Source: Candidatus Hydrogenedentes bacterium CG07_land_8_20_14_0_80_42_17 (GTDB taxonomy: Bacteria > UBA8481). From it: a DNA stretch of 15,044 nt. The stretch lies in contig PEWQ01000119.1 in NCBI GenBank assembly GCA_002780065.1, forward strand, positions 1 to 15,044, read 5' to 3'. The notes below the pieces were generated by a model. That model did not search any database. It was not told the DNA's origin and was given only the letters and a program-made list of their open reading frames with translations. This document shows positions 7,509 through 14,847 of the stretch, piece after piece; position 1 is the stretch's first letter, and each line of letters begins with the position of its first letter. The translations under genes and the position numbers were made by a program.

Positions 7509-8234
7509 GTGATAATTACAGCCGCGTTGATAACGACATTATTGGTCTGCGATACAAGTGCTCAACTTGTTGAGCCTTCGCCCACTATTCGTATTCGTTC
7601 AGCATCTCGAAATGCAGAATCACATAAACTTCAAGAGCCTCAACCTAGAATTAGAGCAGTAGAGCCCCAGCCGGCTCCTAGAGCTATTCCAGAGCACGTT
7701 ACACCGATAATAACTGCAAGTGATTCGGACACTCGTCCTGAAATTTCTATCCGCACTGCTCCTGTAATTTCTCCAACTGAAAATGTCACAGAGTCATCTC
7801 TGTCGTCAGATACAAAATCCGCTCCAATGCAAAAATTTGTTCCAAGAGTAGAAACAAAGCTCGAACCGGAAATAAAATTAAATCGTTCAAGAACATTATT
7901 GAACGCGATACGATTCTTTGACCGCAAAGAGTTCTCCAAAGCAGAAAGCGCATGCATCGAGGTTCTCCATTATTATCCGAATGACACCATAGCTATGACG
8001 CTTATAGGCGCAGTGCTTTTCAAATTGAACCGCCCCAGCGAAGCCGTTCTCATATTCATGGAATTTGTCAGGCAACAGCCGCTGGATGCCATGGCGCATT
8101 TTTATCTCGGACTTGCATATCATTTATCCGGAGACAAAAAAAGTGCCATCGAAGAATACTGGTCTGCAAAGCTCATAGACCCATCGTTAGAAGCAGCTCA
8201 GGCAAATCTAAAACAATTAACCGAATTAAATTGA
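7509..8234 (+). CDS. Exported proline-rich protein with C-terminal TPR repeats
   Basis: A 241-residue protein from a GTG start. Residues 2-18 form a hydrophobic signal core ending CDTSAQ, with likely signal peptidase I cleavage after TSA; the Cys is not in a good lipobox. Residues 20-120 are low-complexity, rich in Pro, Ser, Thr, Arg and Glu, with repeated PxIRIR/QPRIRAVEPQP-like patches. Residues 128-240 hold three TPR-type units (KEFSKAESACIEVLHYYP, NRPSEAVLIFMEFVRQQP, GDKKSAIEEYWSAKLIDP). It is probably a periplasmic scaffold. The GTG lacks a ribosome binding site and the signal peptide lacks the usual basic N-region. An MILKKRII-like stretch lies just upstream in another frame (7475-7498), so the true N-terminus may be hidden by a frameshift. 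The glycosyltransferase gene starts one base past its stop, and the T2SS genes follow. Confidence 0.75.
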   Translation: MIITAALITTLLVCDTSAQLVEPSPTIRIRSASRNAESHKLQEPQPRIRAVEPQPAPRAIPEHVTPIITASDSDTRPEISIRTAPVISPTENVTESSLSSDTKSAPMQKFVPRVETKLEPEIKLNRSRTLLNAIRFFDRKEFSKAESACIEVLHYYPNDTIAMTLIGAVLFKLNRPSEAVLIFMEFVRQQPLDAMAHFYLGLAYHLSGDKKSAIEEYWSAKLIDPSLEAAQANLKQLTELN

Positions 8235-8235
8235 G

Positions 8236-9048
8236 ATGAAAGAAGAAAGCAAAAAACTTTCCGCTGTAGTCATCTCCGAAAACGAAGAGGATGTGATAGA
8301 GGCATGCCTCAATTCTCTTTGTTTTTGTGATGAAATAATTTTGGTGGACGGCGGTTCAAAAGACAGAACAATCGAGATTGCATCGAGGAATTCGATTGTG
8401 AGAATTATAAATCACTCATCGTCAGAGGGCGGTATTCACTTCAACAAAAATCTTGGAGCTAAAGAAGCTAAAGGCGAATGGATTCTTTCAATCGACGCAG
8501 ACGAAGTTGTCAATTCAAAACTAGCTGGTGAAATTTTAAATACGATTGAGCGCGCTGAATTCCATGCTTATTATCTAAAACGCAAAACATTCTTTCTCGG
8601 AAAGTGGATACGTCATTGCGGATGGTGGCCTGGAAAAGTAATTCGACTATGGAAAAAAGGTCATGCCGAATGGCCGCTTGAAGTTCATTTAACTCCTTCT
8701 GCAAAAGAACCTTGCGGGCTTCTAGAAGAATCGCTAGAGCATTATTCTTACAGGAGCGTAAACGATTGGATCAGAAAGGCCACACACTTTTCAGGTTGTG
8801 AAGCAGTTGAATTCAAACAAAAAAAAGAACTGCCCAATAATTTAAAATTATGTTATGAGATTACTCTATTGCCGGCGCTGACTTTTATCAAAAAATTACT
8901 CTTTCAATCCGCATGGCGCGACGGAATCCACGGCATTGTTATCGCCGGTTCTGCGGCATTTGCCGTCTGGCTGCGCGGAGTAAAAAAATGGGAGATGAAG
9001 ATAACCGGAAATGTTCCAAACCTCGGAGGCAGAAAAGGAAGCCTATAA
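8236..9048 (+). CDS. Family 2 glycosyltransferase, WaaE/KdtX-like
   Basis: A 270-residue GT-A fold enzyme. The N-terminal LSAVVISENEEDVIEACLNSL and EIILVDGGSKDRTIEIA (residues 8-49) form the nucleotide-binding half, and DADE at 87-90 is the metal/nucleotide-sugar DXD motif. LGKWIRHCGWWPGKVIRLWKK (121-141), the downstream EVH (149-151) and LEHYSYRSVNDWIRKATHFS (167-186) are typical of the WaaE/LgtF-like group, which adds a sugar to the inner core of lipopolysaccharide. Residues 205-250 include a hydrophobic patch that could sit on the membrane. Specificity cannot be read from sequence; LPS core glucosylation is the default. It starts one base after the TPR gene stop and ends 58 bases before gspG, so it appears to share a transcript with the secretion genes. 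Confidence 0.85.
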   Translation: MKEESKKLSAVVISENEEDVIEACLNSLCFCDEIILVDGGSKDRTIEIASRNSIVRIINHSSSEGGIHFNKNLGAKEAKGEWILSIDADEVVNSKLAGEILNTIERAEFHAYYLKRKTFFLGKWIRHCGWWPGKVIRLWKKGHAEWPLEVHLTPSAKEPCGLLEESLEHYSYRSVNDWIRKATHFSGCEAVEFKQKKELPNNLKLCYEITLLPALTFIKKLLFQSAWRDGIHGIVIAGSAAFAVWLRGVKKWEMKITGNVPNLGGRKGSL

Positions 9049-9083: not shown

Positions 9084-9110
9084 ATGTTAAATGTAGGATT
9101 AAGTTCATGA
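9084..9110 (+). other. Possible eight-codon leader ORF overlapping the gspG start
   Basis: ATG at 9084 opens a frame encoding MLNVGLSS. Its stop TGA (9108-9110) overlaps the gspG ATG (9107-9109) as ATGA. An AAAGGAG lies upstream at 9060-9066, somewhat far (17 nt) from the ATG. The arrangement could couple gspG translation to a leader peptide, or be chance. Confidence 0.15.
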
Positions 9111-9520
9111 ATAAATTTCAAACTTCTTCCGGCGGTTTTACGCTCGCTGAAATTCTAATCGTAGTGGTTATTCTCGGCATACTCGCTACTTTCGTGCTCC
9201 CACGTTTCTTCGGCAAAACTGAAGAAGCCAGAATCACTGCAACTCGATCTCAAATCGCTAATCTAGCAACTGCACTTCGTTCTTACAATATGGATACGGG
9301 AAAATTCCCATCAACCGACGAAGGATTAGAAGTGCTGCTTGAGAAAACACCGGAAGGAAAAGGTCCGTATCTCGAAAATACCAGAACTCTTCCTAAAGAC
9401 CAATGGAACAACGAATACAGGTATTTATGTCCAGGCGATCATAATCCGGATTATGATCTTTGGTCAGCCGGTCCTGACGGCACATCCGGAACAGAGGACG
9501 ACATAGGAAACTGGTCTTAG
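9107..9520 (+). CDS. gspG: T2SS major pseudopilin GspG
   Basis: A 137-residue prepilin. After a 10-residue leader the prepilin peptidase site is G10/F11 in GGFTLAEILIVV, with the essential Glu at +5 (E15) and a hydrophobic N-terminal helix to about residue 32. GKFPSTDEGLEVLL (residues 65-78) and AGPDGTSGTEDDIGNW (121-136) are strongly diagnostic: the latter is the calcium-binding loop of GspG. It is the main subunit of the periplasmic pseudopilus that pushes substrates through the outer-membrane secretin. The frame is open far upstream into the glycosyltransferase, but this ATG gives a normal short leader and has TAGGA at 9094-9098 as ribosome binding site. gspH follows five bases past its stop. 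Confidence 0.95.
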   Translation: MNKFQTSSGGFTLAEILIVVVILGILATFVLPRFFGKTEEARITATRSQIANLATALRSYNMDTGKFPSTDEGLEVLLEKTPEGKGPYLENTRTLPKDQWNNEYRYLCPGDHNPDYDLWSAGPDGTSGTEDDIGNWS

Positions 9521-9525
9521 CTGAA

Positions 9526-9993
9526 TTGCCTAAAGACAAATTTTCAAATTTTTCAAAATCCGGTTTCACTCTGATAGAACTTCTTATCGTTGTAGCAGTT
9601 ATTTCCATCGGAGCTCTTATTCTATTGCCAAATATAGATGCAGTATCTACGCAAGGAAGCGACGAAAGAAGCTTCAGGCTCATCAATTCAGCATTACAGT
9701 CTGCTCAAGACCAAGCTCTTATCAGCCATACAAAAACAGAACTCAACATCGATCTTACTCATAAAGTTATTAATATTTCAGGAAAATCCGAGCCGATAAA
9801 ACTTCCTGACTCCAGCGATATCGTTATCATTCAGGAAAATGGAGAACCGATTTCAAGCGGAAAGGTTTCGATTAAAATTGACGATTATGGAAATATAGAA
9901 CCGTTCGAGGTTAAAATCGGTCTTAGAATCAAAGCAATGGCAAATCCATTCACGGGATTGTTAGAGGATTTGAATGAAGAAAATAACAGATAA
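9526..9993 (+). CDS. gspH: T2SS minor pseudopilin, GspH-like
   Basis: A 155-residue prepilin with leader MPKDKFSNFSKSG, cleavage at G13/F14 (GFTLIELLIVV) and Glu at +5 (E18). After the N-terminal helix, FRLINSALQSAQDQALISHTKTELNID (about residues 50-76) matches the GspH/FimT pattern, in which a helix of this kind leads into a beta sheet. GspH is a minor pseudopilin that joins the pseudopilus. The only in-frame initiator near the right place is TTG at 9526; no ATG or GTG lies close by and no ribosome binding site is evident, so translation is probably coupled to gspG. The last 20 bases overlap gspI. The H assignment rests on gene order and the FimT-like helix; sequence similarity among minor pseudopilins is low. 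Confidence 0.8.
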   Translation: MPKDKFSNFSKSGFTLIELLIVVAVISIGALILLPNIDAVSTQGSDERSFRLINSALQSAQDQALISHTKTELNIDLTHKVINISGKSEPIKLPDSSDIVIIQENGEPISSGKVSIKIDDYGNIEPFEVKIGLRIKAMANPFTGLLEDLNEENNR

Positions 9994-10354
9994 AAAAAGC
10001 TCTGCGGGTTTTTCTCTAATCGAGGTTCTTGTCGCTCTTGCAATCGTTGCTATCGTGTCAGTCAGCATAATCGGATCTACTGTAGGAATGAGCATGCACG
10101 CCGAAAGATATCAGGAAGATATTCAGTTGTCGTTTCTCTTGAAAGCGTTGGCAGGCGACATATTTCTTCGCGGTCTTCCCGCTTCAAAAAGCGCATCGTT
10201 CGATACTCATCCGGACTACACGTGGAGAATCGAAATCAGACCTTTAAGATTCGGCGAGTTCGAAGGAATAACTGCGCCGATAAGCAAGAAAGAGGTTCTC
10301 ATGACGGTAATTGCTCCATCCGGCCGCACTGTCTCCGCAACAATGGTAATATGA
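9974..10354 (+). CDS. gspI: T2SS minor pseudopilin, GspI-like
   Basis: A 126-residue prepilin: basic leader MKKITDKKSSAG, cleavage G12/F13 in GFSLIEVLVALAIVAIV, Glu at +5 (E17). FSLIEVLVALAI is the typical GspI N-terminus. The short globular domain is of GspI size. In characterised systems GspI forms the tip complex with GspJ and GspK that starts pseudopilus assembly. The start lies 20 bases inside gspH and the stop overlaps the gspJ start as ATGA, so the three genes are probably translationally coupled. Confidence 0.85.
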   Translation: MKKITDKKSSAGFSLIEVLVALAIVAIVSVSIIGSTVGMSMHAERYQEDIQLSFLLKALAGDIFLRGLPASKSASFDTHPDYTWRIEIRPLRFGEFEGITAPISKKEVLMTVIAPSGRTVSATMVI

Positions 10355-10869
10355 ATAAAAGTTTATCCCGCGGATTCACTCTCATCGAAATTCTTGCCGC
10401 TCTGGCAATAGGCTCCATGGTAATGCTTGCTATCGCAGAGACGTTCTATTCCGCCGTAATGATCGAAAAGCAAAACGGAAATAAATCCGCCGACGATAGA
10501 ACTGCAAGTATTCTCTTAAACAAAATGTCGCGCGAAATTATTTCCGCTTTTCGGTTTGAAGATACTTCTGTATTCAAATCTGAAGGCAACGGAGAAAAAG
10601 ACAATATAACCATTTGGACCGGAGCATACGGCGTACCAAAGTTCGTCGAGTATGAATGGCAAAGCGAAACATTACTCCGTAAAGAAATCGATACAACAAA
10701 ATTGAGAGAAAATAAACCGATTCCAATCAGAGGTGTCACAAAACTCGGATTAAGATTCTACGATAACAACGGCTGGCATGAAGACTGGAACGGAAACGGA
10801 ATTCCAAAAGGTATCGCAATAGAACTGCATATAGGCTCAAAGGTTTATGGAACTATCACAACTTTGTAA
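10351..10869 (+). CDS. gspJ: T2SS minor pseudopilin, GspJ-like
   Basis: A 172-residue prepilin with a very short leader MNKSLSRG, cleavage G8/F9 (GFTLIEILAALAI) and Glu at +5 (E13). It matches GspJ in size, in the pattern R.ASILLNKMSREI after the N-terminal helix, and in the C-terminal V..LGLRFYDNNGW..DWNG segment, where GspJ proteins usually describe a W-rich edge of the domain. It would sit in the GspI-J-K tip. The frame is open for 43 codons upstream within gspI, but only the ATG at 10351 gives a proper prepilin leader; it overlaps the gspI stop as ATGA. The last 23 bases overlap gspK. Confidence 0.85.
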   Translation: MNKSLSRGFTLIEILAALAIGSMVMLAIAETFYSAVMIEKQNGNKSADDRTASILLNKMSREIISAFRFEDTSVFKSEGNGEKDNITIWTGAYGVPKFVEYEWQSETLLRKEIDTTKLRENKPIPIRGVTKLGLRFYDNNGWHEDWNGNGIPKGIAIELHIGSKVYGTITTL

Positions 10870-11776
10870 CTCTTCAGAAAAAAGCAAAGGAGCCGTTCTA
10901 ATCCTTGCCCTTATCCTTTCCGTCCTTTGCGCAGCGATTGCAGTCGAAATCGCATATTCAGTTCAAATAGAAGGTGAACGCGTAGCGGCTCAGTATTCGC
11001 TTGAAAAAGCAGAACTGCTGTCGCAGGCAGGTTACGAGTTGGCAATAGAAATATTAAAGCGCGACGACGGAGCAATAGATTCACAAAATGATTTGTGGAA
11101 CAATCCAATAGATTATTCGAACGAAAACGGAGCAGTTAGAGTTCAAATTTTCGACGAATCCGGCAAGTTTCCGATCAATTCACTCACAAGTTCCGATGGT
11201 CTTTTAGATATCGGTTGGAAAGGCAGATTCGAAAGGTTGACTTCAAATTTAAATATGCCGGAAGACCTGCCGGACTGCGTCGTCGACTACATCGATCCCG
11301 ACGACAATATGCTCATTCGAGGCGCGGAGCGGGAATACTACGAGAGATTAGAACCGCCGAGGCTTCCTGCAAACAGAAGATTGATGTCGCTTGATGAATT
11401 GAAATTCATAAAAAATCTCGATGATACCTCAGCACAAAAATTAGCCGGCGTTACTACTCTTTTCCCCACACGCATTAATATTAACTCTGCCAGTCCTGAT
11501 GTATTATCAAGTCTTCTGCCTTCGATAACGCTTGATGACGCAAACCGAATTTCAGCGAGACGGACAATAACTCCATTTAAAAATTTATCAGAACTCAACG
11601 ACATTATTAAACTTTCGGAAGATGATTTTAACGAACTAAATGGTTTAGCTTCTGTTTCATCAACACTTTTCAGAATAGAATCGACCGGCAGATCAGGTTC
11701 GAGTGAAATTAAGATAGTTACAATTGTTGAGAGACAAGGAGCTGATTTTGTCATTAAATATCGTAGAATGATATGA
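10847..11776 (+). CDS. gspK: T2SS minor pseudopilin GspK (tip subunit)
   Basis: A 309-residue protein with leader MELSQLCNSSEKSKG, cleavage at G15/A16 (KGAVLILALILSVL) and Leu at +5 instead of Glu. The missing Glu is the classic GspK feature and fits its role as the cap of the pseudopilus. The large size relative to other prepilins, the WNNP patch, the acidic DCVVDYIDPDDNMLIRGAE segment (about residues 143-163) and ININSASPDVLSSLLP (about 209-224, the helix-hairpin-like NINTA.xEVL motif of GspK) are all typical. The gene starts inside gspJ with an AAAGG four bases upstream. gspL follows 10 bases past its stop. Confidence 0.93.
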   Translation: MELSQLCNSSEKSKGAVLILALILSVLCAAIAVEIAYSVQIEGERVAAQYSLEKAELLSQAGYELAIEILKRDDGAIDSQNDLWNNPIDYSNENGAVRVQIFDESGKFPINSLTSSDGLLDIGWKGRFERLTSNLNMPEDLPDCVVDYIDPDDNMLIRGAEREYYERLEPPRLPANRRLMSLDELKFIKNLDDTSAQKLAGVTTLFPTRININSASPDVLSSLLPSITLDDANRISARRTITPFKNLSELNDIIKLSEDDFNELNGLASVSSTLFRIESTGRSGSSEIKIVTIVERQGADFVIKYRRMI

Positions 11777-11786
11777 GAGAGAAAAT

Positions 11787-12941
11787 ATGTCATCGATAAT
11801 AGTTATAACATGGCCGTTGAAAGAAATATTTCTTTTCAGCAGAGGGTTCATGAAAACCGAATTGAAAGAGTCCGTAAGCATAAATTCCGGTTCATTAGAA
11901 ATTCCTGTTGAATGGCTAAAAGAAGCGAAAGAACTGCGCGTTCTATGCAGAGGCGGATTTAATCGAATCACCGAAATTGCCGGAGCAAGCGGCAGTGAAG
12001 CCGAAGATGCCGCGATTTATTCCATCGAGAATACATTGCCTTTGCCTATTTCGTCTCTTGTCTTCGCGGCGCGCACGATAAAGAAGCGAGGTGGACAGCG
12101 TAAGCTTCTCGTTTCGGCTCTGCCGGCAGGGAACATTTCTGAACTTCAAAATCAATTAAGTAAATATCAAAAAGAAATATTTTGGATCGGCACTGCTCCG
12201 CTTGCAATGAGCGTAAAAGGCGATCAATGCATATATGGAGCTGACTGGGCGGGGGTTTGGAAAAAAGGCGAATGCATCGATATTCAATCCGGGCTGACAG
12301 GAATAGATGCCAAAAATGTTATTGATAAAAGAGGAAAAGAAAATCTTGAATGGCGAGAAATTAATTCACTTGAAGAGGCAGAAGCTCTTGTCTCTGCAAA
12401 AGACGGCTCATTCAAATTTGAAGAAGAGACGAGAGACGAAAAGCGATTTAATTTTGCCGCACTCTTTGCGGTAATCGCGTTTGCAATTCTCATCTTCGCA
12501 TTCGGTTTGCGCTACTGGAGTGCAAACAAAAGAATAAATGCATCTGAGGCGGCTGTCGGAAAAATTTTCGCCGAGGCAATGCCAAATACTAAAATGGTTT
12601 CTCCGATAGAACAGATGCGATCCGAGCGAAAAGAATTACTGACCGAATTCGAACTGATTAAAAATAGAGTTGAAAAGAAGGGGTCGGCGCTAGACTGGCT
12701 TATCGCGCTTGGAACGTGCAAGCAAAAAGATTCATTTGTTATAGATGATTTCAGAGCTTCAGGCAACTCGGTCACAGTAATAGGTTCGGCTTCCAGCACT
12801 GATGCAATAGACGAGGTCACAAAAATCCTCAAAGAAATCGGCGCAGTTAATCAAATTGAAATTAGTGATCCGGAAATAAGGCGGTCGGCGCAAGGAATGG
12901 GGCTTGATTTTGTTTACAAAGGTGATAAGAAGAATTCATGA
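11787..12941 (+). CDS. gspL: T2SS inner-membrane platform protein, GspL-like (PilM/PilN-like architecture)
   Basis: A 384-residue protein. Residues 1-220 are a soluble, cytoplasmic, actin-like PilM/GspL-type domain (EDAAIYSIENTLPLPIS is the recognisable segment around residues 73-89). One membrane span lies at about 222-244 (FNFAALFAVIAFAILIFAFG). A coiled-coil stretch and a PilN-like ferredoxin-fold periplasmic domain follow (LDWLIALGTC..DSFVIDDF, then GSASSTDAIDEVTKILKEIG). GspL recruits the GspE ATPase and pairs with GspM. The sequence is divergent and the call rests on architecture plus gene order between gspK and gspM. The ATG has a GAGAG purine stretch upstream (11775-11779) and the stop overlaps the gspM ATG as ATGA. 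Confidence 0.82.
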   Translation: MSSIIVITWPLKEIFLFSRGFMKTELKESVSINSGSLEIPVEWLKEAKELRVLCRGGFNRITEIAGASGSEAEDAAIYSIENTLPLPISSLVFAARTIKKRGGQRKLLVSALPAGNISELQNQLSKYQKEIFWIGTAPLAMSVKGDQCIYGADWAGVWKKGECIDIQSGLTGIDAKNVIDKRGKENLEWREINSLEEAEALVSAKDGSFKFEEETRDEKRFNFAALFAVIAFAILIFAFGLRYWSANKRINASEAAVGKIFAEAMPNTKMVSPIEQMRSERKELLTEFELIKNRVEKKGSALDWLIALGTCKQKDSFVIDDFRASGNSVTVIGSASSTDAIDEVTKILKEIGAVNQIEISDPEIRRSAQGMGLDFVYKGDKKNS

Positions 12942-13450
12942 TTTCATATAACTTCACATCTGTCAGATCGCCGCTAATTGTAGGATTGATTATTATAGCG
13001 GTTATTGTCGGAATACTATCCGCTGAAGATTACGTAAAAAGTTATGAAAAACGAGCGGCAATAAAAGAATCTGAAGTCGATAGAGCAAAGGAAATTGCAG
13101 GAGAAATTACAGGCCTCAGGAGTGCGCTCGAAAACATGAGAGGAGCAGTCTCAGGCGGCGAGCCGGTCGGCCGAACAGTAGAGCGCATTTGTATGGAAGA
13201 AAGCATAATCCTTGTTTCTTCTCAAAGCGCAGGGCAAAAAAATATTCCGCCATTTCGAGATGTCATCACTTCGTTCAGAGTCAAATCAGTTGCTCACAAA
13301 CCTCTGATAAATCTTCTCAATAAACTCGAATCTGCCCGCACCGGTCTTATTGTTTCCCAACTTACAATTCGCCGATCTATCGAAAAAAGAAATAAGCTCG
13401 ATGCAGAAATAATCGCATCACAATTTGAAATTCAAAATGAGCGGGGGTAA
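12938..13450 (+). CDS. gspM: T2SS inner-membrane platform protein, GspM/PilO-like
   Basis: A 170-residue bitopic membrane protein: short cytoplasmic N-terminus, one span at about residues 12-29 (PLIVGLIIIAVIVGILSA), a charged coiled coil (about 30-70), then a ferredoxin-like periplasmic domain of PilO/GspM type (VERICMEESIILVSSQSAG followed by FRVKSVAHKPLINLLNKLE, a common pattern in which a helix follows the first strand). GspM binds GspL and stabilises the platform. Sequence is weakly conserved in this family, so the name rests on topology, size and the position right after gspL, with an ATGA overlap. The next gene begins three bases past its stop. Confidence 0.8.
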   Translation: MISYNFTSVRSPLIVGLIIIAVIVGILSAEDYVKSYEKRAAIKESEVDRAKEIAGEITGLRSALENMRGAVSGGEPVGRTVERICMEESIILVSSQSAGQKNIPPFRDVITSFRVKSVAHKPLINLLNKLESARTGLIVSQLTIRRSIEKRNKLDAEIIASQFEIQNERG

Positions 13451-13453
13451 AAA

Positions 13454-14140
13454 ATGGAAATAAAAGAAGAAGAAATAAAAAATAACTTATCTGCAAAACA
13501 CGAAGATGAAACGGTTCCAATGCCAATTGCAAAGTTGTTGATAGTTGTATATGTCGGCACTCTGTTTCTGGTTATTATGACTCAAATAATTTCAATCTAT
13601 AACCGTGACAAACTTTCTTCCACAATAAAGGCATACAGCGAAGACATCAATGCAATAGGAAATCTTTCAATGGCATTGATAGAGATTGAAAATGCTGACG
13701 AAGAGCTCAGAAACTGGGTTCTCTCGGAGAACAATAACACTTCTTTTAATTCTTCAAATTATTCTCTGCATCTCAGTACTGCTAAAGAAGCTTTGGATTC
13801 AGCAAAAAATGTTTCCAAGAAATATCAAAATTTAAGAGATATCATTCTTGCTTCCATAGAGGACCTCAAAAATAGAAATATTCTCATAAATCAAGCCATT
13901 AATTCAAAAGAAATAAGCATAGCAAAAAAATACGCAGTCGATAGAAGGTCGATAAGTTCAGCTATGAATCTTCTTTCATCTATTCTGCGTGAATCGAGAC
14001 ATGACATGGAATTGCTTCAAGCAAAATTGCAAATTGAAACCAAAACATTAGATATATCTTTGACGATAATAATTACGGCAATGATCATTGCATCAATTTT
14101 TCTAGCATTACTTTGGTCAAAGCTGGTGGCGCTACATTGA
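13454..14140 (+). CDS. CHASE3-like two-span membrane protein without output domain
   Basis: A 228-residue protein: a charged N-terminal tail of 26 residues, one span at about 27-49, an all-helical periplasmic region of about 150 residues, a second span at about 201-221 and only seven residues after it. Topology and pattern (SMALIEIENADEELRNWVLS near 72-91, then long amphipathic helices ending DMELLQAKLQIETKTLD) resemble CHASE3/four-helix-bundle sensor domains of chemoreceptors and histidine kinases. There is no HAMP, kinase, cyclase or methyl-accepting region, so it cannot signal by itself. It starts three bases after gspM and overlaps the next gene by TTGA, so it is part of the T2SS transcript. 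It is not a known T2SS component I can name; it could be a platform accessory or a sensor for a separate partner. Confidence 0.75.
   Translation: MEIKEEEIKNNLSAKHEDETVPMPIAKLLIVVYVGTLFLVIMTQIISIYNRDKLSSTIKAYSEDINAIGNLSMALIEIENADEELRNWVLSENNNTSFNSSNYSLHLSTAKEALDSAKNVSKKYQNLRDIILASIEDLKNRNILINQAINSKEISIAKKYAVDRRSISSAMNLLSSILRESRHDMELLQAKLQIETKTLDISLTIIITAMIIASIFLALLWSKLVALH
14125..14129 (+). promoter_or_regulatory. Ribosome binding site setting a TTG start
   Basis: GGTGG lies seven bases before the TTG at 14137, whose last bases form the stop codon of the preceding gene (TTGA). It favours this start over the in-frame TTG at 14113, which would lie deep inside the preceding gene. Confidence 0.5.
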
Positions 14141-14352
14141 TAAACAAACTGCTTCTATTGGGAACTGCAGGCATCTTCTACATCCTCTTGATAGTATATG
14201 TTGCATCAGAGCTTTACTACAATCACACTTACTGGCGGCTGGTATTGAGAAAAAAGAGGCGGCATCGGTGGGAGTTTATGCTTTGGCTTGAACGAACTCT
14301 TCTTATAATCATCGGAGTAATTGTTATTCTAATAGCAATGGTCAAAATTTAA
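14137..14352 (+). CDS. Small two-span membrane protein of unknown function
   Basis: A 71-residue protein from a TTG start. Two hydrophobic spans (about residues 4-24 and 52-69) flank a short loop with a basic cluster, LRKKRRHRWEFMLW, which by the positive-inside rule should be cytoplasmic, leaving both ends outside. I recognise no family. It overlaps the CHASE3-like gene by four bases (TTGA) and ends the plus-strand run, with the hicA stop only 25 bases further on in the opposite direction. The tight coupling suggests the two membrane proteins act together, perhaps with the small one as a cytoplasmic-side adaptor; this is inference. Confidence 0.65.
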   Translation: MINKLLLLGTAGIFYILLIVYVASELYYNHTYWRLVLRKKRRHRWEFMLWLERTLLIIIGVIVILIAMVKI

Positions 14353-14377: not shown

Positions 14378-14611
14378 TTACAGCAAATTGAGAAATTCAT
14401 CTCGACTTAATCCTGCCTGCTCAATAATTGCCAGAAGGGTTCCTTTTGGAATATCTCTGCCTTCAGGCACAATTACAAGTCGAGTTTTATTTTGATCAAG
14501 TCTAACGAAAGCGCGATGACTTCCTTTTCCGCGATTAGGAGCATAGATAAATCCTGCTTTTCTCAAAACAGAAATAATTCGTTGTGAAGAAATAGAAGGT
14601 AATCGTTTCAA
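14378..14611 (-). CDS. hicA: HicA family mRNA interferase toxin
   Basis: A 77-residue protein with the HicA double-stranded-RNA-binding fold pattern: I.VLRKAGF (residues 13-21), GKGSHRAF with the catalytic His at 32 following Gly-Ser, then VIVPEGRDIPKGTLLAIIEQAGLSRDEFLNLL. In characterised HicA toxins the GSH His is needed for ribosome-independent mRNA cleavage, so the toxin looks intact. The start is TTG overlapping the hicB stop (TTGA), which may keep toxin output below that of the antitoxin by weak, coupled initiation. It is convergent with the small membrane protein gene. Confidence 0.92.
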   Translation of the reverse strand: MKRLPSISSQRIISVLRKAGFIYAPNRGKGSHRAFVRLDQNKTRLVIVPEGRDIPKGTLLAIIEQAGLSRDEFLNLL

Positions 14612-14847
14612 GCTACCGCTACGTCTAAGTTGCTGGTAAAGTGAACTGGTGAAGAAAGCGCAGGAGTTAGATCAGAAAGAATTCCAAGCTGTTCTGCATT
14701 TTCAAGATATAAAATAACAGCCTCTTCCAACGCCGAACGAGCCTTTTCTGGCGTAGAGCCATACGAAGCAACTCCAAGCTCAGGACATTTCGATACAAAC
14801 CTCTTACCTTCTTTCCAAATAACAACAGTTACTCTAAATCTTTTCAT
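14608..14847 (-). CDS. hicB: HicB family antitoxin
   Basis: A 79-residue protein with the HicB partial RNase H-like fold: strand-forming FRVTVVIWKEGKRFVSKCPELGVASYG (residues 4-30), then STPEKARSALEEAVILYLENAEQLG (31-55), the usual helix. It neutralises HicA by binding it. The 24-residue tail after that is short and polar and has no helix-turn-helix or ribbon-helix-helix DNA-binding domain, unlike many HicB proteins, so autorepression may be weak or rely on another protein. It is the first gene of the pair, the reverse of the classic hicA-hicB order but common in HicB-HicA systems. A promoter lies directly upstream. Confidence 0.88.
   Translation of the reverse strand: MKRFRVTVVIWKEGKRFVSKCPELGVASYGSTPEKARSALEEAVILYLENAEQLGILSDLTPALSSPVHFTSNLDVAVA

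Follow-up and report, generated by a model that had tools for sequence, protein, structure and literature searches.

Two overlapping genes directly downstream of gspM, here called P1 and P2, form a new pair, restricted to one lineage and linked to a known machine, the T2SS, in two genomes of one phylum. On balance their products are best read as two subunits, translated together, of an accessory to the T2SS platform that is specific to this lineage, sits in the inner membrane and would stabilise or tune platform-ATPase assembly; this reading is preferred to a sensory gate, to a replacement of GspC and to a chance passenger at the operon tail.

The genes were analysed in a stretch of 15,044 nucleotides (the window), in which a gspG-H-I-J-K-L-M run occupies positions 9107–13450, all on the plus strand. 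By sequence, this block is assigned to the T2SS through the G and K pseudopilin families together with colinear H, I, J, L and M; T2SSG, T2SSK_1st and T2SSJ were matched above cut-off (Pfam), and GspL and GspM were recognised from weak NCBIfam matches and position. P1 follows gspM after a 3-bp gap (gspM end 13450, P1 start 13454), and the TTG start of P2 lies on the TGA stop of P1 within the tetranucleotide TTGA, both as reported in the preliminary description of this DNA. A scan for terminator and promoter signals gave nothing above chance level. Coordinates and assignments are collected in the table.

Table. Genes of the T2SS run in the window, with identity of their products to the colinear orthologues in the comparison genome G001 (for gspH to gspK, the range over the four proteins).
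Feature	Position	Strand	Identity to G001	Assignment
gspG, major pseudopilin	9107..9520	+	67%	Pfam T2SSG, 8.7e-29
gspH-type pseudopilin	9526..9993	+	28–40%	N_methyl; colinear orthologue
gspI-type pseudopilin	9974..10354	+	28–40%	N_methyl; colinear orthologue
gspJ	10351..10869	+	28–40%	Pfam T2SSJ, 1.8e-7
gspK	10847..11776	+	28–40%	Pfam T2SSK_1st, 7.1e-18
gspL (divergent)	11787..12941	+	28%	TIGR01709, 5.4e-4, under cut-off; position; colinear orthologue
gspM (divergent)	12938..13450	+	26%	NF040576 GspM, 2.4e-5, under cut-off; position; orthologue
P1, 228 aa, ATG start	13454..14140	+	28%	Two-span protein with predicted periplasmic four-helix bundle; no known family
P2, 71 aa, TTG start	14137..14352	+	56%	Two-span hairpin with conserved basic cytoplasmic loop

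For comparison, Candidatus Hydrogenedentota MAG J006 (G001; contig RFFU01000040.1), which belongs to the same order and a different family, was used; the evidence for the pair thus comes from two genomes of the phylum, that of the window (G000) and G001. An identical, colinear gspG-H-I-J-K-L-M-P1-P2 run was found in both. When the 21 window genes were searched by tblastn against 27 kb of the G001 region, exactly nine matched, namely gspG to P2 in unchanged order; the 12 flanking window genes had no match in the 27 kb around the run, so that the conserved block ends at P2. The P1 and P2 orthologues of G001 directly follow gspM and P2 overlaps the P1 stop by 1 bp, the two genes thus overlapping in both genomes; the G001 P2 starts with ATG at the aligned position of the window TTG, which supports the window start. 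Within the nine-gene run only GspG is more conserved than P2, which excludes a spurious open reading frame. Each genome has one copy of P1 and of P2 (2/2 genomes of the phylum), and in both the pair lies next to gspM and was found nowhere else. The link to the T2SS, proposed earlier from tight linkage in the window, is therefore strengthened: the whole run from gspG to P2 is kept in another family, where its flanks are different, and the relative that keeps the same gspG-M run has retained the pair.

In both genomes the genes for the secretin, GspE and GspF share a second locus (G000:C24 and G001:C63), so the main parts of the machine are present, and the T2SS is divided in each genome between two loci, D-E-F and G-M-P1-P2. 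The secretins are of 903 aa (L062, G000:C24, 249–2960) and 930 aa (L063, G001:C63, 7270–10062); on reading the sequences by eye, both GspD homologues carry an N-terminal TPR-like extension before the N0-type domains. The GspC HMM (T2SSC) matched in neither genome, and the T2SSN HMM gave no match in G000 and weak sub-cut-off matches, away from P1, in G001. In studied systems the platform consists of GspC, L, M, F and E, GspC joins the platform to the secretin, and GspN occurs in some T2SS only (PMC11981180, PMC10128026).

The slot after gspM was surveyed in other phyla, where the GspK family PF21687 was found in 138 of the genomes searched (140/376 with both genomes of this phylum). Sixty other-phylum gspK loci were sampled, and none had a protein of P1 layout after gspK or gspM or a look-alike pair; in 36 of these loci rule-based recognition of an L-M pair made the next gene readable. 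This slot held GspN (L069, E 1.2e-42), GspC-like proteins (L091, L110), an AsmA/GspN-like protein (L090), unassigned one-span proteins, large proteins of secretin size (by size alone) or unrelated genes closely following gspM (hrcA, polA, pantothenate kinase). The slot thus varies across phyla, lineage-specific genes in it are not unusual in themselves, and the earlier view of gspN/O-type genes as the end of T2SS operons was too simple. P1 shares with GspN (PF01203) the position after gspM found in some phyla; unlike GspN, it is all-helical with two transmembrane segments (TMs) and has no T2SSN match.

Hydropathy placed the spans of P1 at residues 28 and 201 (start positions) and those of P2 at residues 5 and 53, in agreement with the two spans described for each protein. 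P1 consists of a TM, a helical domain of about 150 aa and a second TM, probably with both termini in (N-in/C-in) and the helical domain out. It stops 7–9 residues after TM2, both orthologues ending in ALH, and there is no HAMP, kinase or MCP domain, which bears out the earlier description of a protein with essentially no cytoplasmic output. Between window and G001, conservation within P1 is highest in TM2 (13/23 identical, 57%), versus 32/146 (22%) in the periplasmic domain. An AlphaFold model computed from the two sequences (pLDDT 80.6, pTM 0.62) has two long helices, each holding a TM, with shorter helices between them that complete a four-helix bundle. Foldseek with this model returned many sensor domains, at a best E of 0.1 and with none at E ≤ 0.001. 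VIA-align gave as top match Tsr in the chemotaxis core unit (Z 14.6, 204 residues, 3.8 Å), followed by domains of PcaY_PP, Tar, LytS, NarQ and McpS (Z 10–14.6 overall); helical bundles readily reach Z values near 13–14, and the agreement may reflect a common arrangement. P1 is accordingly modelled as a predicted four-helix bundle of the periplasmic type seen in chemoreceptors and sensor kinases. CHASE3, PilJ and Tar-type domains have a common bundle without sequence similarity (PMC6381276). The label 'CHASE3-like' given to P1 in the preliminary description is fair for the predicted fold and fails for the family, as neither P1 nor its orthologue matched CHASE3 (PF05227), 4HB_MCP or PilJ up to E = 1 (Pfam). 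Relative to 4HB_MCP, CHASE3, PilJ and NarX-type sensor domains, P1 has the same predicted TM-helix bundle-TM layout but differs in lacking a family HMM match and any cytoplasmic output.

The loop of P2 holds 8 K/R and each end of the protein a single K, so the loop is placed in the cytoplasm and both termini outside; the very basic cytoplasmic loop noted from the window is thus well supported. This loop is also the most conserved part of P2, with 23/28 residues identical between window and G001 (consensus ELYYNHTYWRLxLxKKRRHRWExxLWxE). Structure prediction gave a helical hairpin, and fold likenesses to PsbZ, EMC5 and others (Z ≤ 7.3) were dismissed as generic hairpins.

Pfam and NCBIfam contained no credible family for P1 or P2; weak matches to MSC, Zwint, MbpC and OadG_rel_small (E ≥ 0.0026) were under curated cut-offs and inconsistent between orthologues. 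The T2SSN (PF01203) and T2SSC (PF11356) HMMs did not match P1, and a PDB sequence search returned coiled-helix noise only. In 384 genomes from other phyla, searches with P1 and P2 profiles gave no credible homologue. A P1 match in G057 (E 1.9e-4, with an internal stop) was not found again with the two-sequence profile, and P2 matches in other phyla at E 0.003–0.1 were short and often ran across stops. A P2 match in an uncultured bacterium (L009, 10001–10141, 38% over 47 aa) places a KKRRHRW loop motif within an O-antigen-ligase/TPR-like protein of 759 aa; no T2SS lies near it, and the match was therefore taken as a chance resemblance of a basic motif. A pattern scan for the conserved P2 motifs in 84,980 species genomes, which is blind to relatives without both exact motifs, returned J006 and one chance match only. 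Full-text searches of the open-access literature yielded no comparable T2SS accessory.

In the preferred reading, P1 and P2 would form a membrane complex through the conserved TM2 of P1, and the periplasmic four-helix bundle would pack beside the periplasmic domains of GspL and GspM as a fast-changing surface, as GspL and GspM themselves are. The arginine-rich hairpin of P2 would lie on the cytoplasmic face and hold acidic lipid or the cytoplasmic domains of GspE or GspL, and the pair would act from a slot given elsewhere to GspN or GspC-like genes. Like the components of the T2SS assembly platform (GspC/F/L/M/E, sometimes GspN), the two are inner-membrane proteins with periplasmic domains, encoded directly after gspM; they match no Gsp family, and a helical two-span P1 and a hairpin P2 have no known platform counterpart. 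Three points weigh against an accessory of the platform: the sample is two genomes; since the order of the whole operon is conserved, the pair could ride along; and the predicted fold of P1 resembles sensors more closely than any known platform subunit. A passenger of this kind, in which the pair is an envelope module of this lineage with no role in secretion and came to the operon tail by chance, is judged improbable; it would fit a sample of two genomes and the unrelated genes that closely follow gspM elsewhere, but the conserved block stops exactly at P2, all other neighbours differ between the two families, and P1 and P2 turned up nowhere else in the searches.

The likeness to sensors leads to a different reading, in which, unlike in a platform accessory, P1 would respond to a signal. 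P1 would sense a ligand or the state of the envelope, and movement of TM2 would be passed through P2 to the secretion motor, gating the T2SS; this takes up the earlier, conjectural suggestion that periplasmic state is sensed and relayed by the small protein towards GspL and GspE. In its favour, sensing is a frequent role of four-helix bundles (PMC6381276), the P1 model is similar to sensor domains together with their TMs, and conservation peaks at P1 TM2 and the P2 cytoplasmic loop. Against it stand the structural scores, which may reflect helical arrangement in general, a periplasmic domain of 22% identity, with no ligand-pocket motif to be read from two sequences, and the missing HAMP or other output domain; signal-driven gating is thus unlikely, if still the strongest competitor. 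Its more specific form, a built-in gate in which an orphan four-helix-bundle receptor acts directly on the platform and ATPase via P2 as a 71-residue transmembrane relay, is about as improbable as the chance passenger. The least probable proposal is that P1, with P2, replaces GspC and links the inner-membrane platform to the extended secretin. The unmatched T2SSC, the TPR-like extension on both secretins and the use of the same slot by GspC-like or GspN genes in some other phyla speak for it; P1, however, has two TMs, is helical throughout and lacks an HR-type beta domain, and a GspC gene could sit on an unassembled stretch of G000, which is 87% complete. GspC is moreover a divergent protein that HMMs often fail to find outside Proteobacteria, which also counts against replacement.

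If the preferred reading is correct, two uncharacterised families from a poorly sampled lineage would be added to the T2SS assembly platform, as a compact case in which to study how extra inner-membrane subunits or sensor-type domains may control pseudopilus assembly. The 28-residue loop of P2, almost unchanged between families, offers a precise handle on the partner of P2.

Both flanks of the run differ from those in G001. A TPR protein and a family-2 glycosyltransferase, not found in this position in G001, are encoded immediately 5′ of gspG (7509–9048). Likewise absent beside the G001 operon, genes for a HicA-type toxin (PF07927, E 1.7e-13) and its HicB-like partner are found shortly after P2 in the window (14378–14847, minus strand), convergent to the operon.
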